From: Sycobia sp. Sy_11
Taxonomy: Eukaryota > Arthropoda > Insecta > Hymenoptera > Epichrysomallidae
Assembly: GCA_018907035.1 (NCBI GenBank)
Contig: JACCIC010000053.1
Span: 675,501 to 739,500, forward strand
Direction of reading: 5' to 3'
DNA length: 64,000 bases
Shown here piece by piece: positions 4,796 to 54,900 of the stretch. Position 1 is the stretch's first letter. Each line of letters begins with the position of its first letter. Both the position numbers and the translations under genes were made by a program. The notes under the pieces were generated by a model. That model did no database searches, had not been told where the DNA came from, and saw nothing but the letters and a program-made list of their open reading frames with translations.

Positions 4796-6566
4796 ATGCA
4801 AAACCATTTATCACGTCATGAATTTTCAAGGTAAGACTTATTTTGGAGCATACTTTCACAGTCGCATTTTCTTCCATTTTTGCCACAGATGCTGACAAAG
4901 AAGTCAATTTTTCACGTGCCAGGAAAACGGTTTATTTGAATAATATACTCCGAGATTACGAGAACAGTTCGGAATACGATGACGACAGTGTGGACGAGGA
5001 CTGGCTACCGCAAAGCACTTTGGATACGGTGTCGGATTCAGACGCCGCATTGGCAGCGAAACGTCCGGAGGTGAGGGAGCGAGCAGCTCCAGTTCTAACG
5101 AAAGTGAAAGCGAGGGCGAAGGTGCAGCGTCAGGTATGGCGACGTGGGGGCAAGAGGCCGGTACGGAAACGCTCCAAGAATACATTGCAAAAGATAAAAC
5201 GATTTGGAGCAAGACGCCGCCCGATGTTCATCAAGCCGCTTCTCATAATGTTCTCCACCAAAGAAGCGGTCCGGCTAGATCGACAGAAACATTATCGGTA
5301 GTTGACACTTTCAAAAATATTATATCAGTTGAAATAGTAGATCTCATAGTTCGTTATACAAATCAAAAGGCAAAGCGTGTGTATGATACTTATAACTCAA
5401 CGAATCGACTAAAATCGACTAAACTCGACTATATTACGATTTATTCGTTTTGATAATGAAAATACGCGCCAAGCACGAGCGCAAGAGGATAAAGCTGCTC
5501 CTATTCGTGACATATGGACGATGCTCAATGCAAATTTGGCTAAAATATATAAACCAACAGAGAACTTAATTATCAATGAGCAGCTTTATCCTTTTCGCGG
5601 TCACACCAGCATCAAAATTTGCTGGGTTTGCGACGCTGTAACGCGTTTCCTTTGTTTGGAATTATTTATACTGGTAAAGTGGGCAATGTTCGCGAGAAAA
5701 ACCAAGGAGAGAGAGTCGTGAAGGAACTTGTAACTCAGTTCAAAAATAGTGGAAGAAATATTACGATGGACAATTTTTTTACTACCTTGTCTCTTGCTAA
5801 ACATTTGTTATCATGGAGATTGACAATCACTGGTACTTTGAAAAAAAATAAGCCTTACATTCCTAAAGAAATGGCTCCTAATAAATCTCGAGAACAATAG
5901 TCTTCTCTTTTTGGTTTTCATGAACGTAACGTTACTATTTGCTCATATGTATCGAAAAAGAAAAAAGCTGTTATCTTACTTTCTACTATGCACTCCGATA
6001 CTGCTGTGAATGATGACGAGCAAAAGCCACACATGATTACTTATTATAATAAATACAAAGCTGGTGTTGATATAATGGATCAGATGGTAGGCAGATATAG
6101 CACTCACAGACGCACTCAGAGGTGGCCACTCGCTTTGTTTTTTAACATTTTAGAGATTGCTGCACTTGCAGCGTATATAGTTTACTATGAAAACAATAAT
6201 ATGATCAGGAAAAAGACCCATCAGCGTCGTATTTTTTTACATCAATTGAGTGAAGAACTATGTAAGCCTTCGATTGAAGACCGCTCTTCAAACAATCAAA
6301 TCATGCGCCACCACTGAACGAAGAATGCAGTCGAGGACATACTCGTAGTTCACGTCGGTCCTGTGCCTGCCGCTAAAAGAGATGATGAGCCTCGCGATAC
6401 TACTGGTAGATTGAAAGGATTTAAAGTAACAGGCTCTTGTCATCTTTGCTATAGATTGACAATTAAAAGACGTAGAAAGACCAGAAAAAGTTGCGTAGAA
6501 TGTCAGAAACCCGTATGCGATGAACATTCTTCAACAAAAGTATTGTGCTCTGATTGCGTTGACTAA
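4796..6566 (+). pseudogene. piggyBac-like transposase, broken
   Basis: Fragments of one piggyBac transposase appear in order. An acidic N-terminal piece (from about 4890, SSEYDDDSVDEDWLP) is followed, after a frame change near 5130, by PPDVHQAASHNVL and TETLSVVDTFKNIIS. A further frame change with apparent internal deletion near 5430-5450 leads to FDNENTRQARAQ and the IINEQLYPFRG segment. The three catalytic aspartates are present: GAC at 5632 (WVCDA), GAC at 5769 (MDNFF) and GAT at 6069 (AGVDIMDQM). A frameshift lies near 5643, and in-frame stops are at 5898-5900 and 6315-6317. The C-terminal Cys/His zinc-binding domain (CHLCYR ... CVECQKPVCDEH ... CSDC) ends at the TAA by 6566. The original start is uncertain; an ATG at 4796 is a candidate but does not connect cleanly. 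Not functional as it stands. Confidence 0.9.
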
Positions 6567-15037: not shown

Positions 15038-18000
15038 CTTAAAAAAATAACATTTTTCGATAGTACTATGCTCGTTCTTAACGATTGAAAAACGTAGATT
15101 TTTAGAATAAATATGAATATTATTTAAAATATAATAAAATAATGCATTATTTTTAAAATTATTTCAAATATTATCATTTCTGAATAATAATATTTTTTTA
15201 ATAAGTCATTTCGTATTAATTACCATTCAAGTGATTATCTTCTTCGTGTTCTTTTTCTTGATTCGAATGAGGATCCAAATCGGGATTTACGGGTATGCCG
15301 AAAGACATTGGGTCTTCGGCTCCAAACAACTAAATATAATAAAGTTCAAATTTAATGTTGCTGTTTGCAATTTGAACAAAATAAACTGAATAATTTAAAC
15401 ATACAATAACAATTACAATTACATTATTACAAAACCTAATCATTAAAATCATTCAAAATTTTTTCATTTCTCAAACGGCTCTGATTTCCAATTTATAATC
15501 ATTCTAAAAATTTTATGGAAAAACTTCCTCTTGAAGTCGGATGAAATTGTTGTTCGCTGAGATTTACATAATTCTTTCCAGAACCCCCTCGTAAATTTTT
15601 CAATTAATCGATTAAAACTCAGATGATCGAGAAAAAAAAACTGTATGCGACGCTAAAATGTTTCATAAGCTCCGCGAACGCTTTAATCCGCTTTAAGAAT
15701 CGTATGATAAATTAAAGAATCTTGTATAAATAACTTTGGTGAAAATTTTAAAACCCGGACAAAGTACAACAGTTAGGAATGAACCAAAAGCTATTAAAAT
15801 TTGTCACGGTAGAAAATTATTTAATAATTAATTTACAAGCCAATACAGCTATTGGTTTTACTTTATTTGAAAAAAGATGACGGACAATAAAATTTTCTAC
15901 AAGCATTGTCCTTGTCAAAATTCAAATTTAGAATATTTTGAAAATTTGCTTTATCCAGAGGGCTAATAATAATTGATTAACGTAAAATACATCGTGATAT
16001 TTTTTCTGCATAAATTAAAAATATGAATTAAGCGCTCGAACAGAACTAAATCACTGATGGAACGGTGCCAAGCTCTGCGTTCCTATTATTCATAAATACG
16101 TGTTATTTGATTAATGTTTTAGCTCGGGCATAAATCATATTATGAATTACATTTGAACAATATCTCCGAACGCGGATCTATACGATGTTTTTCTGTACGT
16201 TTAAATTCTAATCTATTCAATTTAATACAAGATCTCTTCGATAATTGCTTGGACATGTTTTCGATTAACTAGAAAGTTGATACCACTATATTTTTCAAGA
16301 AATATTGTTTTTTTTTTTTCGATACTAGAAAGTAAAATTTAATGAGAATATATTACTAAAACTTCTTTGAATACGACTTTTTTAAGTATTGAGCGTAATT
16401 TTCAATAATAGCTAAATTGCAATTATATATACAGGATTAGGAAAAAAAACTGTAAATTATATTTGTTTTATTACTACTCACCCCTAGAAGAGTATTAGCA
16501 TCAATGCTATAACCTTCGCCGCGCAAGATGTCGCGTAAATTTTCCAGCTCGGATTGCATTGTATCTAAATGAGTGTCTACTTCCTCCCTGGGTAAAAAAA
16601 AAGTGGATTAAAACATTAATTATGGAAAAAATGTTTTTGCCAATTTAAAAGTAACCCCAATCGTATAGAAACAACGTACACGCTTATCATTAAAATATAA
16701 GTATTCTTGTTAGTACATTTTCTTTTGTTTGGATAAATTTAGATCCTTAATAATTACTGTGACTAATAATACTATAAATTAATAATAAATAGATCACGTC
16801 AAGTCAGTTTAACAAGTATTTAGCTTGAAATTTCTTTTTTGAAATTCTACACAATTGGGAATACTAAAATAAAGTATAAAGTAATTGTCTTAAACTTTTA
16901 ATAGAGAAAAGCAACAAGAGAACCATTAAATCGTTAGATGTGAGTTCACTTGATCAATTTTACGATCTTCACCGTGATAACGGCGTTTAACACACAAAAA
17001 TTATTTTGAGACTATTGAAAAACGATTTAAAACAATACCAATCACGGTTCGTTGCGCCAAGAACGATGGGAGCAAATATGTTTGATAAAATAAAAAATAT
17101 ATACTTCTGGCATAAAACATGTAAATGTAATTAAATTTTCCGAAACAATAAGTCGAATTGATGTTACCACTACCGCAGGCTCCTGTCGGGTTACGAAGAA
17201 ATCATTATACCAATTCAGATCAATTCCTAAAATGACTTTAGAAAAATTATATAATATAAGGCACCATTATAAATATTGCGATAATTTTTTCTCCAAATGA
17301 TTTAAAGCAGTTTTATGAGAGGATGTGTTCTCATCATGGAAGACCAGAGAAAAAGGATTAAGTACTGTTGAACAACGATTAACAAGCGGAGCATTTTAAA
17401 TTTCAACAAGAAACTTATAAATGCACATAATTATTAGTAACCAATGACTAAATTTAATTTACAATAGAAGATTCAGAAAATTAAAACAACCTCCTGACTT
17501 CTTGTTGAGAAATACCTGGCTTTAATTGTAATAAACTTCTATGAATTTAATAATATTTCTAAAATAAATAGTAATATACCTTATTATACTAAATCTATTA
17601 TTATTCACTGAAACATTATAATTTAATAAAAATCATATTGCATATTGAAAAACTATTCTAGGAAACTCTTTTTCAAAATCTAATTAGATGAGAACTGAAG
17701 AAAAATGTTACTAATGTACTTCTTGAAGGACAATGATTGGTATGATATAATTGAATATAATTAAACTATTAAACAAACCTAGATATTAGACACCTAGGAT
17801 CGGGATTTTCATAAAACTAATTGAAATACTTCTTTTATTTTATAGTATGTACAAGATTGGATTTTTTCAATTATAAATATTATAAAAAAATATTATAGAA
17901 TTTGATATTTTTCATTAAATACTTGAAACATCCATTTCTAATCAGAATATATAGTTTTCACTTTCATTTACTTAAAGAAAGTGGTGTTAGAATATTGCTT

Positions 18001-42900: not shown

Positions 42901-45900
42901 TTCAGTGATAATAATTAGATTTTTAACATAATAAAATAATCAATATACAAAACATAAAAAACAAAAATGATTGATTATGGATAAAAATGAAATATACCTA
43001 ATCGAAAAACTAAATATATATCTTCAAAATTATAATTTTTGTATGTGTATTGGCATAGTGAATGAATTATACCCCTCGGTTGGTTCTGCGGGAATCCTAA
43101 GGGAAAGTATACGTTATAAGTCATTTCAAAATATCACCTTGTTAGTATGCGTAGAAACGGTAACCTGTCCAGTTCCCCCAGGTGTTAGATCCTCTATCCG
43201 CTCTTCAACGTTTTGTGTTACGCTTTCTTGATCTTTTACCATCGATTGCTTCGTTGTCGATTTAACTATTGTCGGCGTGCTGACTGGCATTGGCGTTGTC
43301 TTCTTTTGCTTCGGTACATTAGTCATTTTCGCAGCAGCCCCTTTAAAATCTTTTATACTGACATCTGCCTTTTCTAAAGGTTGTCCACTGCTTGTGTATA
43401 TGATACCATCTTTAATGAATGCCCCACTTTCATCAAAAAGCTCTTGATTCTTTGGCTTGCCATTCTTATCATAAACTTTGCCATCTTTGACATAACTACC
43501 GTCTTCAGAATAGACGCCATTTGTAATGGGTGATCCATCATTGTTACAAGCAAGTCCTCTCTTTACCAATTTAATCGTAATGGTTGTATAATGCTTGTTG
43601 AGAGGCTTGCCTTCAGGAGAAATTACAAGACCATCTTTAACAATATTACCTTCAGTATCGAAGGTAGTATTTTTCAATGGCTTGCTATCATTATCTACTA
43701 GAACCCCCTGAACAACTTTGTGAGCTTCAGGCCCAAAAGCTTCTTGAGTTAAAAGCTGACCATCAGCTTCATATACTTTTCCATTCTTTATATAGCAGGT
43801 CTCAGGACTAAGAGATCCCTGAAGTAGTGGTTGACCGTTGGCTCCTAACGTCAATCCATTTTTAACGATGGTACCATCACTATTAGGCTGATTTTGAGTA
43901 AGAGGATTGCCAATGGCATCATAAATTTTACCGTTTTTGATAGTTGAACCATCTTCTTTGTAAACAGCTGATTTTATAGGCTTTCCATCCTTATCACAAA
44001 CTAAACCATATCGATAATATGTTATTTTAATCACTGTGAGTCTTCTATTCAGTGGATTTCTGTCAGAGCCATAGATCGAGCCATCTTGTATATAACTGCC
44101 ATCATCACCGAAAGTTCCACGATTTAGAGGTTTCATATCTTTACCGTAAATGAAACCATTCTGAATATAACCATCTTCGGTACCAAAAGAGCTATGATTT
44201 AAAGGCTGACTGTCTTTTCCAAATAATCGACCCTCCTGAACATAATATCCAGCTGGTAAAACAGTTCCGGCATTTAGAAGTTGTCCACCCCATCCGTAGA
44301 TGAGGCCATCTCTGATGTAGGTATTATCAGTTCTGAATGCTCCTTGTTTCAGAGGTCTTTCATTAACATTAAATACTACGCCGTCTCTGATGTAACAGCC
44401 ATCCGGTAATAAGGATGCTTGATTTTTCGGTTGCCCCTGTGAATCCACAATTTTGCCATCTTTAATAGCCAGCCCATCAGGACCGTTGTCATCTTGTGTT
44501 AGAGGCTTGCCATCTCGTCCAATAATTAATCCATTTTTTATTTTATTGCCATCGGGACCGAATTCACCTTCCGCTAAAATGTTTCCGTTCTTATCATGAA
44601 TCAGTCCTCCAGCTACGTAAGATCCATCCGAACCAAAAAGGTCGCGATTAAGGGGTTTACCAGAATGATCGAAAATAATACCATTGGCTATGTAGCTGTC
44701 ATCAGGCAAAGAGGAGCAGAGATTTAAAAGTTTTCCATCTTGACCATAAATCAGACCGTCTTTAATATAGCTGCCATCAGGTTTGAAAAAAGCTGATTTA
44801 ATTAGCTTATTATCCTTCGTATAAATTTTACCATCTTTAATTGCAAGATTATCGGGCAGCAAGGATTCCTGGTTAAGCAACTTTCCGGATTTGAAATGTG
44901 CCGCACCTTTCTTTGCATAGCTGCCATTTGATCCCAGCGATTCTTGTTTAACAGGTTTACCATCTTTACCAACAATAACACCATCCTTGATTGCAAGACC
45001 TTCATGACCAAGAGTTCCTTGTTTCAAGGGTGTACCATTGGAATCTAAAATAAGGCCATCCCTAATAGCGGTATTATCGGGTTTAAACAGATTCTGATTC
45101 AGTGCTTTACCAAATCGATCATACAAAATACCATTATTAACATACGCGCCATCAACAATTAGTGGGATCTGATTCAATGGTCGAGCATCCTTAGCGTGAA
45201 TAATACCATCCTTGACAAAGCTTCCGTCAGCTTTGTAGAATGCATGTTTAACAGTTTTACCATCTTTACTTACAATTTTACCATGTGATAGGTGTGAACC
45301 GTTAGGTAGTAAAGAACCTTGATTAAGAAATTTGCCATCCTTACCATACACCATACCATCTTTGATTGTAGCACCATCTGAACTGAATGTTACGTGTTTT
45401 ACTGGTTTGCCATCTTTAGCATACACTTTTCCTTCGGTTACATAATTACCTTCGTGACCCAGATCACCGCTAGCCAAGGGTTTACCATCCCGACCATAAA
45501 TTAGACCATCGCTAATGTATGTTGAATCCGGCAACAAAGCAATCTGTTCAAGGGGCTTCCCATCATTCTTGCAAACAATACCACCAACAATATAATTGCC
45601 GTCAGCACCATAGGAGCCTTGAGTTAGCGGCCGACCATCGCGGGAAAATATAAGACCTTCTTTTACATATGTACCATCACCACCAAGTGTGCTATATTGC
45701 AGTGGTTTGCCATTCTTTGAAACAACCTTACCATCTTTGACAAGAGTATAGTCCGGCCCAAGATAACAACGATTAAGTGGTTTACCGTCTGCACCGTAAA
45801 GTATACCGTTTTTAATTGAATTTCCGTCTGTACCAAGCACCTCTTGATATAAAGGTTTCCCGTCTCTGCCCATAACGACGCCATTAATAATATGCGTGCC

Positions 45901-48900
45901 ATGCGGACCAAAATCGCCTTTTTTAATCAGTTTTTCATCCTTAGAATATAACTTTCCGTCTATTACACGGCAGCCCTCAGGACCTAGGCTGTTTTGGTCT
46001 AGAGGTTTACCATCTTTAGTGATGATAACTCCGCCTATTATTTTACAAGCATCTGGCAGGGGTAAAACATGGAAATCTGAATCTGATTTTATGCTACCAA
46101 CGATTGGTAATCCAGGGGCATCTTGCATACCCTTACTTTGAGCTTCATTCTTGATAAGTGCGGTAGAAGCATTTTTTGCATCTTTAGTAGGTCCCGTGGC
46201 AGGTGGTGCTGGCGGTTGAACAACTGGCTTTGTTACTGTTGGTGGAATAACATTCGTTACTGCTGGTTGACCCACGCCTTTTTGCTTTTCTTTTAATCCT
46301 GCAGATTCAACGTAGTTTAAGCCTGGAGTTTTAAGACCTGGTTGTGTGGATGTTGGAGTAGTTGCTTTCAACTCGATCTCTTTCGTTTTACGTTTTTCTG
46401 CTTGTTCTTCGAGCTTTTTCATATCACCCGGTGCATAATTGAATGCATAACCCGTAGCCTTACGACTGCCGGAGGTTGGTGACTGTTGGTCTTCTAATTT
46501 AGGCGAAGTGGGCTTGTCTTCATAAGAGAATCCTTGCGTCAAGAAACGCTTCTTTAAAGGTGAGGTTTCTTGTTCAACGTATTCATAAGGTTTGGTAAAT
46601 GCTGGTTTCTCTGATGTAATAGTTTTTTCGGCATCTTTCTTTTCTTCAGGAGTACTTGCTTTCGCAGATGGTTTATCTTTCTCCGGAGTCTTAGCTTTTT
46701 CAGAATTAGATAAGTCGGATTCAAGATTACTTGTGTCGTTCAGCTCCTCTAATTCAATATTCTTCTTTTGTTTCTTCTGCTTTTCATCCTTGTCTCGCTT
46801 ACCAAAAAATCCAAATCCACTGGCCGGGCTCTTTGTGTATGTGGTAGAAATAAAAATAAAGAAAAACAAAATATTCATGTTTTAAAATAAAATCAAAAGA
46901 TAATAATGTAAAAAAGTTATTTGTGCATTAAGGAAAAGCAAGTGAGTTAGGTTGAATCGATGTTGTTTCAGAATCCTAGAACTCCTGTTTATTGATTTAT
47001 AGATAGATATATAAATAGACCAAAAATCCAAATAAGAAGCTTTGCCTTCACATTCAAAGGACAAAACTGTTATAAATCTAATTTTTCACTTTTAGCCTTT
47101 TAAATACTTTTGATTCGCAGCTTATCGAACTGTAATACTGTCGAAAATTCTGATAAGTCATTTAATCGTGAGATTTTTTTATTTAGATGAATTTTATGTA
47201 GCTAAAGGACTGATTTTATAACCAAGGGATGCAACGTAAAGAATGGCTTAATTATTAGTAGAGATTTCACGTCAAATAACAACGTATATGAAAGACTCGT
47301 TCATAAAAATGATTTAATTGTGTATTCTCAGAAATAAAAAATCAAGCATCCTTATTATCAGATCCCTGATATACTAGAGATAGGGTAACGTATTTTTTAA
47401 CGTTAATGGGCAACGGCTAAAACAAGGATGCATTCAAAACTGATAATATATACAATCGAAGATTACATTTAAGAGAGTTGATATTTAGTAATGATGGTTC
47501 ATCCTAGATTCACAGCTTTTTGATATGAAGAATGGATGCATTTTGAATGGTTTTAGTTTTGGTATAGATATGAAAACGGTAAATAGTGCGATTTTCAGTA
47601 ACGATCTCAGGTATGCACAAGAGAGTTTAATCATTGAAAGTGAAGGAATTATCATAGTTCTGTCCATTAGATTAGTAGAATAAGGTTCATATTTGGATGA
47701 TTGATTTATCATTAGCTATCTATATGGGTTGATACATATTAAGCTACATTTATTTCTCAACAAAAGAATCTGGTTAAAATAATTTAAAATTTACTGAAAC
47801 TACTTTGGAAAAAGAAAATTTAATGCGATCTTTTGACGTTTTACAAGAAAAGAAATAACAGTAAGTTCTTTATTTCATATTATCTACCATATCGCAATAA
47901 AAATCTTCACGATGCTGTAAATTTTGTTAAGATTAGTAAGAGAAACACGTGGTATTAAGCAGATTTTGATTAATAAAATTAAGATAAATAAGAGATATAA
48001 GTGCTAGACTAAGTACTCTGTAGTATAGTCTAATAAAAATAATTAACACAGTTTAGTTTATTAAGGTAGTTATTTATATCTGAATAAAATTATGTAAAAA
48101 TTCCAGGTTAAAAAAGTTTGTAATTGACGATACTCATCCAATTCCACTAATTTTCACGTTTTTACATTGTTGGTTGCTTTAATTGTTGGCATGATAGTTC
48201 TCGTAAAAATGATCTTTTAATAGAATTCATAAAAGATTTGATATTATAAGGTTTTATATTTATCTTTAGGCACTCTCAAGTTTAATAAATTTTAATAATT
48301 AGAATTTAAATGGTTAAACTTTTGAAATATATTAACAAATCTTACAAGACTTTATCGAACGTTTTCAACAGATCGTTTAATATATACAGATTCATTTGTA
48401 ATGCAATGGCTAGAGCTTAATAATGTATTACCCCTCCACATCTTTTCGTTATTGTAAAATTAGTTTAGTTCACCTACTGAGACAGGTAATGTTAATAGGA
48501 GTTGGACTATGAAATTTGTGCGTAACTACTATATATGATGTGTGTTAGTTTTGTCTCTGACACTCCAATCGGTGGGATGATTATTTTTTACTATGCCAAT
48601 AATGATGACGTAGATGCATTTTAACTGCTATCGCGTTTAACTAGACTTACCTTAATTTTCTCCTTCTTTACTTTTTCAGATTTTTCAGGCTTTTCGGGGG
48701 TTTTTTCGACCTATAAAAATAATATAGCGCATCTTTAATTTAATTTATTGATAGCTGGGAAGCTAAAGTCGCTATTTAACTTTCTAAGATATGTACAATT
48801 ATTCCCGCATATTTACACAATATTCCTCTCCCATAGTTAATTTTATCGTTTGCATATTATAACTTTTCATCGACTTTTAGCAAGCATCGTACGTCTAGGA

Positions 48901-51900
48901 ATTGGTTACCTGCCGTCCTACTGACGAGCCCAGCAGGTAACTGAGGGCGAAACGTACTAATAGTAATTTATTTCTGTTAATCATTTGAACTTATTCTTCA
49001 AAATTAAAAGTTACACTTTTGCACATATCGAGGAAAGAGTATTTCAATCTGACCTAACCGTCGTTGAAATAAATTTGTCGATTTAACACATCGCGTAATT
49101 TGTGGATTTCACCCAAGTGTGAAAAATATTATATTCTTAGAAATATATTTCAATTATTTAATTTTGTTCCACATAAAAATAATATAGCTCATCTTTAATT
49201 TGATGAAAAGTTATCACCCGCGAGTAAGGAATCGAAAAAAAATAATAATCGCGTTTAACAAGACTTACCTTAATCTTCTCCTTCTTTACTTTTTCAGGTT
49301 TTTCAGGCTTTTCGGGGGTTTTTTCGATCTTCTTATTTTTCTTTTTCGATTCCTTACTCGCGGGTGATGACTTTTCATCAATGCTCTCGAGATGCGCGCT
49401 CTCGTTAATTATGTCAGATTTGTTGAGATCATTGTAATTTTCCTTTTCACTTTCGTTTTTAATATCTTTTTTCTTCTTAGAAAGACCACCTGGCGGTAAA
49501 ACCGCTATCCCTCCAATTGGTTTCTATAATATAAAGTAATTCACAGTCACACGACGCTTCATGCAATAAGCGTTAAGCAGGCTACTTCATTGCTTTTCTA
49601 AACTATTAAATAATTATAAAAATGTATATACTGACTAATAATAACTAAACATCAGCGAATTCGCCGTGCTTCCATGCAATACTGATCATGGTTTATTTGT
49701 ATACTATTTCTACATAATTAACTTGTATTCAAAGGAATATAATACTTTAAACACTTGAATAATTCCACAAAATTTTGCGATGTAAATATCGATAAAAATA
49801 ATCGCATTTAAGAAGACTTACCTTAATCTTCTCCTTCTTTATTTTTTCAGGATTTTCAGGCTTTTCGGGGTTTTTTTCGACCTTCTTATTTTTCTTTTTC
49901 GATTCCTTACTCGAGGGTGATGACTTTTCATCAATGCTCTCGAGATGCGCGCTCTCGTTAATTATCTCAGATTTGTTGAGATCATTGTAATTTTCCTTTT
50001 CACTTTCATTTTTAATATCTTTTTTCTTCTTAGAAAGACCACCTGGCGGTAAAACCGCTATCCCTCCAATTGGTTTCTATAATATAAAGTAATTCACGGT
50101 CACACTACGCTTCATGCAATAAGCATTAAGCAGGCTACTCCATTGCTTTTCTGAACTATTAAATAATTATAAAGATGTATATACTGATTAATACTAACTA
50201 AACATCAGCGAAAAGGAAAGTTGACATAATTGACGAGAGCGCGCATCTCGAGAGCATTTTATCGTCTTGATCTTATAACTCCTCATTGATTTAAGTAAGT
50301 ATTGTACGTCTAGGAATTGGTTACCTGCCGTCCTACTGACGAGCCCAGCAGGTAAATGAGGGCAAAACGTACCAATAGTATTTTATTTAAACATTTGAAC
50401 TTATTTCAAAATTAAAAGTTATATTTTTGTACATATCGAGGAAAGAGAATTTCAATCTGGCCTAACCGTCGTTGAAATAAATTTGTCGATGTTATACATC
50501 GCATATTTGTGGAATTTACCCAAGTGTAAAAATATTATATTCTTAGAAATATATTTCAATTATTTATTTCTACATGATACGAATTACTTAGTAAAAAAGA
50601 CGGTATAATTCAAAAATATCTAGTTTTAGATTTTTTCGAATGTATTTGTTATTTCCGTCAAATTTAAATAAATATGATTTATTATTTTTATATCAAGTAG
50701 TTACCCGGACCAAGTTAAATAGCAAATAATCGCTTAGATCATGAAAGACAAACGATATATGATGATTAGTTTTTAACGAATAATTATAGAAAATTAAAAA
50801 TCATAAGCAATGCAGTATTTTTATAAGTAACATTGTCATTATGAATTTACTTTAAAAGCTGTACGTTATTGAATCAATTTTACATTGCATAATGATTTGA
50901 TGTAAGTATGAAAAAAAATATGAATAGTTTTACTAATAATTCTTTCAATTAAGTAAATGTATATATGTATACATATAAATTAATTAGTAATTAGTAAGTA
51001 GAATTAATAAGTAGAATGGTGCAATTAATAAGTAGAAATTCTCACCAAAAATCAGTATTAAATAATATAAAGTATCTTTTACACAGAAATGCAGGGTAAA
51101 ACTGAACAACGATGCTTGAATAAAATTAATTAGAAACTTGCGATAGTATCAAATAAAAATTTGTGAAGAGCCAACAATGAGGATCGAGAATGAGGATCTT
51201 GCGTCATGCTTTGAAGGAAATGATAAAACACCAAATGGTTCGCTCAAGTCAATATCTAAGGTTTATATTTATTACGAGATGATGGAATGGTGCATGATGG
51301 AAATGATTCGATGGAGTCTAGTAGTCTGCAATACCTTTCCGCCTGCATCATATTCTCCCTCCAGGCTACTGGCACTGCTGGCCGATGTCGTTCCGGTGCT
51401 TGTTTTTCGCGCGAGCTATCAGGTGTTAGTTATGTGTCAGTTAGTTATAAATGAAGGATGCCCTACAGATTGCACAATTAATAACGTGAACTAAATTAAT
51501 AAAAATGAAACGGTACATTGTAAAATCCTCGTTATTGTCATTAAGGAGATGACAAACCAGAAAAAGCATTTACGAGTTTGCGATATATATATAGATATAC
51601 ATAATGTTGTAAAAGTAAAAAGCTTGCCGAGTGTTAAGACTTATGTTAAAATATATCAACGGTGCAAGAGTGAAGAGTTAATAAATTTAATTTACAGTTA
51701 CAAAACTTGTTGTTATTTTTTTAAGATATAGTTTTGGATGCTTCGAAATAAATCCACAGAGCTTATTAAATAATCAATGAGTAAATATGAATGAGACTCA
51801 TGTACGATTCGATATAGTTCTGACTATTATGAAAGTGAGCCAATTGGTGTTTGGACATTTTCTAATATTTGCATAACCATTCAATACAATAACGTTTCTT

Positions 51901-54900
51901 AATGTTAAACGCGACCACCAACACAAATATTTCTTCTACACTTGCTTTATAGACGATACTTTCTATATCCTATTTAAAACAATTAATTTTTTTGCCTTTT
52001 ACCGTAAGAATGCGACTCGCATTGAATGAAAGACATTACCTTCTCCTTCTGTTTTTTAATTGGACTTGGCCGTTGATCGATATGCTCCATAGTCGGTAAC
52101 GTTTCAGGTTCGTAACTCAATGTGTGTCGTTTGCTCGGTTCGGAACTGTAAGGTTCAAGTGTCTTCGATGCACCTAAAGCTGAAAGCACAGGTTGTGACG
52201 AGCCTATTTCAATCATAATGTGACAGTTTGCCTTTGGCAGAACTACATTTTAAAGAAAGCACTTGAGGTACTCTTAATCCTAAACACAAGAATAAAACTA
52301 TTAGCTGGCTACTTACTGTCCATACTACGTGACGTCATTTTTCTAGTACTGAGGAACCTTTCGAATTTCGGAGGCTGCCTCTCAATGGGCGTCTTTTTCG
52401 TTTCGTAATGTGTTCGTCCGGAGTAACGGAAACTGGATCCTAAATGCGGTATTATTCCAGCTTTCTTGACAGGGTCAGGGCTCATGAGTCTAAAAAATTT
52501 GTTCAATGTAGATAAATGTTTCATTAATTATTTATAATATAAGCATTTCACCCATTTCACCAATTGATCTATTTTGGGTTCGAAAATTACGATGTTTAAA
52601 TCAAATTTTTTAAAAACTTTGGAAAAAGTTATTATAAAAAATATCTACAGAATATGCCATGATTGTAAATATATATTTTTCAATACAAAATGTGTCAGGC
52701 TATGAAGTTAAACTAACAAAGCGAGGACTTGAAATGTGGGTGGTGGATTTGGTTCAGATGTTTTACGGTGACTCTCATTACCTTTCGAGTGAAACTTGTA
52801 AACCTTTTACGACTCAGCACTTTTCTGTTACCCAGATAAGGCAGTTTCTTTTAAGTTACAGTAAATATATTTCTCTAATTAAATTGGATATTGCATTATT
52901 TTTGGTATCAGATTCGAAGAAAGACTAACAGTTCGCGAAAAATTTTTTTAATTAATTTATATCTAAATTGTAATACTTTCTAATTTCATGTCCATTTAAA
53001 TAAATTGTTTACTTATATATACTACCACGTTCGTGGATAATCTAGTTCAACTTTAATTAATAATACTTAGTAAATTAAAATATTCGCTTGAAATGTTATT
53101 AATGCTTCAACTCAGGAGCTATAAAGAGGAATTCACATTTAAAAAATCTCTTTAATTCCGTAGTTAGTAGAGTTAAATATTCATTTATAAGCAATGAGGT
53201 ATACCAGAACTGAGGAATAAGAAAGCCTTAGGCTTGAAAACTTTACAGAGCTCATTGGAGGTAATAAACGTAGCTTGCTCAATCTGGAAGAAAACCGTCA
53301 GCCATATCTGATAACTAGCTTAACTCAATCAATTTTTAAATTAGTGTTTTGATTTAAAAAATGCTGAACATTCGAGTAATGTTGAATGGTGGTTTGAAGA
53401 TGAAATTCAAAATTTGGTATTTTATCCTTTGATGAAAATTCAGCCAGAAACTTTTGTGTAACAATCATTGCTTATTATATCGATCTCAAATAACTAATTG
53501 AGTATCCCTTTGAAGAGCTTAATCAGTATATATCATTGAAATTTTTAATTAAATCTAATACATTAAACATGATCGAAGTCAATAGATCGTTGTAAAATCA
53601 ATTATGCACATACCTGAAGAAAGTATGGTGTTCCACACAAGTCTTCCAAAGTTTCTTTGCTGCTCTATGTGTGGCCAGTTTGAAACCAATTGTCGATTCA
53701 AATTGTTCGAATTCGCCGGGTCTTATTTTGATATAAAAATTGTGCCTTTTGAACGAAATTTTGAGAATCTTGGGCCAGGCGAACCTGTTGATCCTCAATC
53801 TGTCCCTGTAAACAGACAAGCCAGTCGAGCAAACGCCGAGCGTAATGTCCACGCCTTCGGAATCTTTTGCCGGATGAAGGTCAATCCCGTACATCGCTAA
53901 TTTCTTTGCATTCTCCAAGTAATGCAGTTCAGCTTCCGCGGGTGTCTGACCTCTGCAGGACGAATTAAATGAAATTATAATTTTTATAAAACGCGTCTGT
54001 AATATAACTAGTAATTTCAGAGCCCATCGTCATCATTCAAATATTCTTACGAAATAACATCGACCTAAGGACTCACTTGTGCGTTTTGTGAAGGTCCATC
54101 ACCTTCTGCACCAATTCCGGGGTCTGATTAGGCGCGAATTTGAAGTCCTTCAAGTACTTGTTCCCGTGCTCCTCCGCATCGTAATCGCCGACTTCCGACT
54201 GCACTAAATAAGAGCCGAGGAGGGCGTGTGTAACGAACGAGCAGGGCAATCGGCCTGTGATTATATCGTTTCGAATTTGTAGGCACAAATGATAGCGCGT
54301 TATGTCCTCTTGTAATTGCGCAGGATCGGGGGGATAGAATTTTACTTCAAAAGTGAACTTCCAAGGCTCATCTAAAATAAAAATTTATCTTACATGATTA
54401 ATGTAATTAATTTAATATAGTTTATTATTAATTAATGAATAATAAATTCAATGTTAATGTTTTTTCAAAGCTAACAAATAAAGTTTACGAATGATTCCTT
54501 TATTTATATAAATTCAATAATACATACGCTTGAGGAACTTTAAGATTCTTTTTTCTAAATCCAACCAATTTCTGCGATCGTTTTTGTCTTCATAAATTAG
54601 GCCAAAATAATCCTTTTCGTATAAATTTAAACTTTGGCACACTTTGTCCAGAAGTTCGTATCCTTTTGCTTTCCTCTGTAAGTGAAATAAGAAGATAAAA
54701 TAGTTACACAAATTATATAGTATATTTTATGTCTTAATTTATTCAAATTAATTTTCTATTACATACGAAGATTTTAATTTTAACTACCTTTTTCTATAAT
54801 CTACCCCACATAATGTATATTACTTCTCATTTATAAAATATTTATTCTCATTTAAAAAGTACATATATTAAGCAGTTCAATAAAATGTTTTAAATGAAAA

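Follow-up and report, generated by a model that had tools for sequence, protein, structure and literature searches.

A 64,000-nucleotide stretch of the genome of the wasp Sycobia sp. Sy_11 (contig JACCIC010000053.1, positions 675,501 to 739,500; hereafter the window) contains an intact type III hammerhead ribozyme, HHR1, which lies in an intron of the gene coracle and antisense to it. We propose, with a probability of roughly 0.7, that HHR1 is the ribozyme carried by a small, noncoding element, similar to the retrozymes that lack long terminal repeats (non-LTR retrozymes), and that this element has been amplified in the wasp through RNA cutting, ring formation and copying by a borrowed reverse transcriptase. 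The proposal draws on a genome-wide family of copies, repetition of the unit within insertions, variable ends, target duplications and constraint on the hammerhead motif.

An intact type III hammerhead with pairing loops

HHR1 and its parts lie on the + strand as follows.

48889 to 48957, +: HHR1, intact type III hammerhead (Rfam model and strict descriptor)
48895, +: C17, with the predicted cut 3' of this base (motif position)
48905 to 48913, +: loop I strand of a 9-bp pseudoknot (loop pairing)
48933 to 48941, +: loop II strand of the pseudoknot (loop pairing)
48921 to 48927, +: core CTGACGA (sequence)
48949 to 48952, +: core GAAA, with G12 at 48949 (sequence)

The 69 nt of HHR1 include all core letters (C3-A9, G12-A15.1, U16.1 and H17) in type III order, and stems of 6, 5 and 4 bp close on the core, with stem III open. 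These core nucleotides and stems, together with the coordinates, strand, intronic antisense position and predicted cut after 48895, agree with the original prediction made from this DNA. That prediction also described an exact 8-nt complementarity between the loops; the match is there, and its length is revised to nine Watson-Crick pairs between a loop I of 15 nt and a loop II of 13 nt, or 12 pairs counting G-U.

The Rfam model RF00008 (Hammerhead_3) scores HHR1 at 35.4 bits (E 4.7e-6, 451 bases scanned), and a gathering-level Rfam scan of the window lists nothing because this score misses the gathering threshold of 48.5; the long loops of HHR1 count as inserts in that model. A strict type I/III descriptor applied to both strands of the window returns HHR1 as its sole site. 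In 172 Mb of sequence simulated from the dinucleotides of the window, stems of at least 5/4/6 bp do not occur, those of 4/4/5 occur four times and those of 3/3/4 occur 46 times, and a loop match of nine or more is reached in 44 of 200,000 loop shuffles. Because of these two results, a chance origin of HHR1 is excluded for practical purposes, as had been argued beforehand from the loop match.

A dispersed family of noncoding units of about 460 bp

HHR1 is surrounded by a 32-bp direct repeat (48713-48744 and 49173-49204, 460 bp apart), and relatives elsewhere in the genome align across 48713-49204. Part of this interval, 48840-49163, recurs at 50256-50569 with 88% identity (blastn). The copies in the window are listed here, with L numbers denoting loci found elsewhere.

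48713 to 49204, +: U1, element copy of one 460-bp unit plus 32 bp of the repeat (repeat spacing; end-to-end alignment with genome relatives)
50256 to 50569, +: U2, element copy, independent older insertion (blastn; 93% to L061, 88% to U1)
50304 to 50372, +: HHR2, with G12>A at 50364 and a pseudoknot-end C>A at 50356, stems kept (alignment; Rfam 33.0 bits)
49711 to 49783, -: remnant of the element's right end, old, incomplete and inverted, without ribozyme (74% identity; L068 matches too)

The second hammerhead and the genome-wide family both go beyond the original prediction. HHR2 differs from HHR1 at two of 69 positions (48941/50356, C>A, and 48949/50364, G>A, the latter being G12) and is predicted to be dead or nearly so. 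U2 is closest to L061 (93.3%), L064 (92.4%) and L068 (91.3%), with U1 at 88.3%, and has small deletions in common with these three loci; U1 and U2 are therefore separate insertions of different age. The idea that U1 and U2 arose by segmental duplication of a low-copy remnant is accordingly rejected, given the genome-wide family and the nearest relatives of U2. The HHR1 copy is young, its nearest relatives being 95-96% identical among the matches listed. Repeated searches of the window gave no element copies beyond U1, U2 and the fragment at 49711-49783; a match at 17914-17961, seen in one search and absent from two later ones, was left unused. Minus-strand matches to the Rfam model at the HHR1 and HHR2 sites (33.8 and 31.9 bits) are taken as a mirror effect of the hammerhead stems, and no ribozyme was found on the opposite strand of the element in the window with the Rfam model and the strict descriptor. 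The 324-nt part common to U1 and U2 has a rod-like fold (z -2.4), which probably stems from the hammerhead and is not used as evidence.

Searches of the wasp's own genome (621 Mb, 472 contigs) reveal that this 324-bp part is matched at least 57 times, on many contigs, with 40 of 499 candidates scored. A pattern for the 5' arm has 103 exact matches, of which 100 are listed, and a pattern for the intact 3' core half has 82, all listed; the reversed controls gave 0 in both cases. Of two odd matches of the 5' arm that were checked, one is a chance match (L114) and the other a decayed copy (L115). A family search with RF00008 returned no match in the wasp genome and none in 14 control genomes, and is hence uninformative. 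The 324-bp part and the 5' arm pattern served to recruit the loci, and pieces carrying neither fall outside the set. The unit of the element is thus about 460 bp long, ring-like and noncoding, and has one type III hammerhead; no coding region was seen in it and no LTR layout in the mapped loci. Like retrozymes, it consists of dispersed noncoding hammerhead units with more than one unit in a row.

Insertion ends and target duplications

Ends were mapped in 28 loci (30 minus two partner views, with U1 and U2 included). All 28 right ends fall within a 78-nt arc that runs from unit position M 419 to M 36, none of them at the cut (M 183), while left ends lie at many different unit positions. The 5' part is inverted in 14 of the 28 loci, and among the 14 without such inversion eight exceed 460 bp (L042, L044, L045, L049, L050, L056, L069 and the longest, L063, at 692 bp). 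Repetition reaches about 3.2 consecutive units on the minus arm of L112 and about 1.7 on its plus arm. Insertions of more than one unit need a template longer than one unit, that is, rings or chains. We further note that the inner ends of the inverted parts of L046, L047, L052, L057, L060, L062, L079 and L081 lie inside the hammerhead region (map 204-237), as if reverse transcription frequently stopped at the folded ribozyme.

Target duplications, defined by a direct repeat at both borders, were sought in 26 loci (without the window's two and two partner views). Direct repeats of at least 10 bp border 12 of these loci, compared with 0.2% of 650 cross-locus pairs, and repeats of at least 11 bp border 11 of them, compared with 0.0%. 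The duplications are 10-15 bp long, and their presence agrees with the retrotransposition expected of a retrozyme. Duplications of this length and inverted 5' parts are marks of target-primed reverse transcription with twin priming, and this mode of insertion therefore fits the family.

Constraint on the hammerhead

We examined 67 hammerhead-spanning copies (30 + 7 + 30), including near-duplicates such as L107 and L108. The full 69 nt are present in 55, with the core intact in 38 of these, and the other 12 copies differ in length. Divergence was measured against U1 in four classes of falling overall identity, with pattern anchor columns excluded and L108 dropped. From the first class to the last, the hammerhead differs at 27/764, 25/814, 21/583 and 83/1401 sites, and the surroundings at 170/3119, 272/3340, 289/2387 and 1008/5470. 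In the oldest class, of 24 copies, 5.9% of hammerhead sites differ compared with 18.4% of surrounding sites, and the hammerhead value is the lower one in every copy (24/24; Wilcoxon P 1.2e-7, the copies not being independent). The majority letter of the same class has changed in one of 59 hammerhead columns compared with 35 of 234 surrounding columns (P 0.003), and that sole hammerhead change turns a C-G pair of the pseudoknot into U-G. Judged from these alignments, the pattern is that of an element in which the source copies would depend on the ribozyme, while insertions, once made, decay without restraint. The suggestion that HHR1 might process a repeat-derived RNA is well supported by this dispersed, retroelement-like family in which the motif is steadier than the rest.

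Deletions ending at the predicted cut

Deletions that can be placed to end exactly after C17 were found in L055 (2 nt), L058 (6 nt), and L059 and L070 (12 nt each, possibly of one origin), and in all of them the bases adjoining the cut on the 3' side are whole. Among the first two locus sets, three of 12 distinct deletions of at least 2 nt lie at the cut (P 5e-5 at the cut itself and 0.010 if any site is allowed). The pattern was spotted post hoc, with the cut site fixed beforehand by the motif, and we regard it as a suggestive footprint of cutting: cutting, loss of a few 3'-end bases and then rejoining or end-to-end template jumping could produce such deletions. One further locus carries about 163 bp of foreign sequence close to the cut (L078:1330-1492), with bases lost on the far side; it was not counted as a footprint.

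A model for amplification and its alternatives

We infer that the hammerhead cuts in the animal and that rings rather than long chains serve as templates. RNA of the unit, as chain or ring, would be cut after C17, and the cut ends would be joined into rings by a tRNA ligase of the RtcB type, by analogy with animal retrozymes, for which RtcB ligation is described in excerpts of PMC7229834. A reverse transcriptase borrowed from a long interspersed nuclear element (LINE) or a Penelope element would prime on an AT-rich arc away from the ribozyme and then follow the ring or chain, in some cases for more than one pass and in many with twin priming; the copy would be inserted with a target duplication of 10-15 bp. 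In coracle the two antisense insertions, with HHR1 intact and HHR2 without G12, would be tolerated passengers, which is the most likely account of the element's position there. A more specific version, in which a type III animal retrozyme lineage carries a 9-bp loop-loop kissing helix and its genomic copies record cutting at C17, 3' trimming, ring joining and multi-round copying, with twin priming, by a borrowed reverse transcriptase, is put forward tentatively, with the odds somewhat against it.

Several observations weigh against this model. The nested hairpin of the isolated HHR1 RNA, at -26.2 kcal/mol, is as stable as the hammerhead stems (-12.7) and the pseudoknot (-13.4) simply added together, and a fold of equal energy may rival the hammerhead and lower its folding efficiency. 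RNA chains, or changes at the DNA level, could give more-than-unit length without rings. Target duplications of at least 10 bp are missing from 14 of the 26 loci, and none was seen at the coracle copy U1. The footprint of cutting is thin once older loci are added (three of 23 distinct deletions of at least 2 nt; P 3e-4 for this site, 0.08 for any site). Among young groups the contrast in constraint is weak, both for diagnostic changes (0/69 in the hammerhead, 11/232 in the surroundings; P 0.075) and for private changes (44/1508 and 202/5348; P 0.12), and U1 and U2 differ at 2/69 hammerhead positions and 23/244 outside (P 0.083). Covariation in 29 aligned copies (28 distinct) does not rise above that in shuffles; the stems hardly vary, and 97.6% of pseudoknot cells are paired. 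Copies drifting without compensation had been named in advance as evidence against the ribozyme, and the outcome is mixed: 17 of 55 full-length copies have broken cores and covariation is absent, both as expected of dead insertions, yet across the lineage taken together the motif is conserved.

The alternative that survives best, improbable as we consider it, is that the copies are ordinary retroposons, derived from a satellite or resembling short interspersed nuclear elements, which came from long tandem transcripts and inherited a hammerhead that has no role in copying and forms no rings. Chains would yield insertions of more than one unit and variable ends equally well, LINE-type copying of any RNA gives target duplications and inverted 5' parts, and the weak constraint among young copies is in its favor. 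It is countered by the roughly threefold lower divergence of the hammerhead in all 24 old copies and by the deletions that end at the cut.

That the loci are integrated pieces of an infectious circular RNA, similar to viroids or to hepatitis delta virus (HDV), rather than a genomic element, would explain the ring-like repetition and is decidedly less probable still. The toad and termite agents have one ribozyme per strand, whereas none was found on the other strand of this element; no coding region was seen, copies of graded age within one genome fit long residence, and the exact pattern is absent from IMG/VR (a weak test).

We think it very unlikely that HHR1 is a domesticated antisense regulator, kept in the intron for the sake of coracle. 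HHR1 is intact and antisense, and intronic hammerheads are conserved in amniote genes according to excerpts of PMC3088659 and PMC6155905. However, at least 82 sites of the genome have an intact core, and HHR1, a young copy among them, shows no sign of special conservation, which also leaves the earlier suggestion that it processes an antisense transcript of coracle without support. A chance or misfolded motif, to which the sub-threshold Rfam score and the competing hairpin might point, can be dismissed in view of the simulations and the conserved genome-wide family.

Relation to known hammerhead elements

Comparisons with published systems follow excerpts of the cited papers. The wasp element shares with animal non-LTR retrozymes a small, AT-rich, noncoding unit with one hammerhead, units that follow one another in a row and target duplications longer than 4 bp, and such retrozymes are reported in insects among others (PMC7229834). 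It differs in that their hammerheads are of type I, in tandem repeats of 150-450 bp, whereas HHR1 is of type III in a unit of about 460 bp; the wasp element also usually has little over one unit, with inverted 5' parts (PMC7229834). With plant LTR retrozymes it shares the type III hammerhead and a circular RNA intermediate, demonstrated in plants and proposed here for the wasp (PMC7761336, PMC7229834). The plant elements are built of LTRs, two hammerheads 600-1000 bp apart, a primer-binding site and a polypurine tract, with 4-bp target duplications (PMC7761336, PMC7229834), and the wasp element has neither the LTRs, nor the two hammerheads, nor the 4-bp duplication. Plant retrozyme hammerheads also have small loops with non-Watson-Crick contacts, unlike the pairing in the wasp (PMC7936874).

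With stem III open and loops that pair over 9 bp, HHR1 falls among type III pseudoknotted hammerheads, taken as those with loops pairing over at least 4 bp. Such hammerheads in termite and toad HDV-like RNAs and in termite and dipteran genomes share with HHR1 the type III order, a 5-bp first part of helix I, Watson-Crick pairing between loops I and II, and occurrence in insect genomes (PMC7936874). Compared by description, they differ in an extra helix I hairpin, a 6-bp stem II and a short GCCR/YGGC contact (PMC7936874). The excerpts of that paper term the termite motifs isolated and report hymenopterans as negative in a search for its own hammerhead architecture. The 9-bp loop pairing of HHR1 is longer than in the published cases excerpted (4 to 6 bp) and in type III parses from IMG/VR. 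Exact hammerhead patterns had no match in IMG/VR or in GTDB genomes; 35 loci of IMG/VR matched a general pattern of stem II, with 12 type III parses in eight loci and loop pairing of at most 4 bp, in a sample biased to the searched stem II and in which loci L018 and L022 are the same sequence. Of six further loci, three run on into GGGCGAAAC.

Penelope-like elements likewise carry a hammerhead in an animal non-LTR retroelement, but theirs are minimal type I hammerheads in coding elements, whereas the wasp element is noncoding (PMC7229834). The pDo500 satellite of Dolichopoda is another insect repeat with a hammerhead and, unlike the wasp element, an abundant satellite of about 500 bp (PMC2837043, PMC2808323); its hammerhead is more conserved than the rest according to excerpts of PMC2837043, but not according to those of PMC2808323. 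The literature searched, which lay mostly outside subscription journals, yielded no description of a hammerhead family from a hymenopteran. The statement in an excerpt of PMC7761336 that elements with type III hammerheads occur in insects, citing work in preparation, means that the idea is not wholly new; we found no description of such a family, and a type III animal retrozyme family is probably new.

The host gene and neighboring features

The site is assigned to a minus-strand coracle gene because of its FERM exons and a long repeat-rich exon.

53598 to 54384, -: FERM exons of coracle (Pfam)
49822 to 50076, -: exon C, a tandem copy of B (sequence comparison, splice contexts)
49269 to 49523, -: exon B, phase 0-0 (splice contexts)
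48711 to 49268, -: intron containing U1, provided that exons B and A are both used (splice contexts)
48651 to 48710, -: candidate truncated exon A, in frame, 60 nt (sequence match, splice contexts)
43126 to 46881, -: exon, single open stretch of 1251 codons, repeat-rich (open reading frame and protein relatives)

The 1251-codon exon contains many degenerate repeats like IKDGxIYGKDGKPLNQ. The best of its listed relatives come from Ceratosolen (71%), Copidosoma (70%) and Phymastichus (71%) and are FERM proteins of full length; lower-ranked ones are named cora or coracle (8000 candidates scored). Named relatives that cover at least 64% of it are all from Hymenoptera among the matches listed, some under the name mesocentin, while other insects give short partial matches. 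The three genera above are chalcidoid wasps, and by these relatives the host of the element is probably a chalcidoid too.

HHR1 thus sits in the intron between B and A, and HHR2 in the presumed intron before exon C. The phase 0-0 exon is tandemly duplicated as B and C, with the third copy, A, truncated but in frame, and GT-AG borders are present on C, B and the remnant A. Against 10 hymenopteran proteins of 167 fetched, exon B has one full or near-full match in nine and a weak one in the tenth; weak second matches occur for exon B in P0124 and for exon C in P0124 and P0131. The exon thus appears to be single in most of the proteins compared, among which named isoforms may hide alternative exons.

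Two adjoining exon parts lie inverted and separated on the + strand at 49200-49248 and 50222-50258, bordering the right of U1 and the left of U2, as if one inverted exon copy had been split. An 18-nt inverted repeat flanking HHR1 (48859-48876 and 49197-49214, 89%) was rejected as a transposon end, its right arm overlapping the inverted exon piece at 49200-49248. Elsewhere in the window, open stretches at 4822-6317 (+) resemble a broken transposase gene, the last of which (5901-6317) matches Pfam DDE_Tnp_1_7, which we take to be a piggyBac-type family.

Implications for hammerhead elements

Animal retrozymes are associated with type I hammerheads, and those of type III with plants, with subviral agents and with a small number of insect or HDV-like cases, according to excerpts of PMC7229834, PMC7761336 and PMC7936874. 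The wasp family suggests, from its genomic copies, that hammerhead cutting helps an element to multiply, and the copies look as though pasted from RNA rings or chains. Its copies, some young and some old, include intact ribozymes as well as naturally dead mutants and bear insertion footprints, which makes it testable how hammerhead elements copy themselves: through rings or chains, with which ligase and with which reverse transcriptase. A wasp lineage of type III retrozymes with a kissing helix, if true, would bridge the retrozymes of plants, those of animals and the circular RNAs that resemble HDV.

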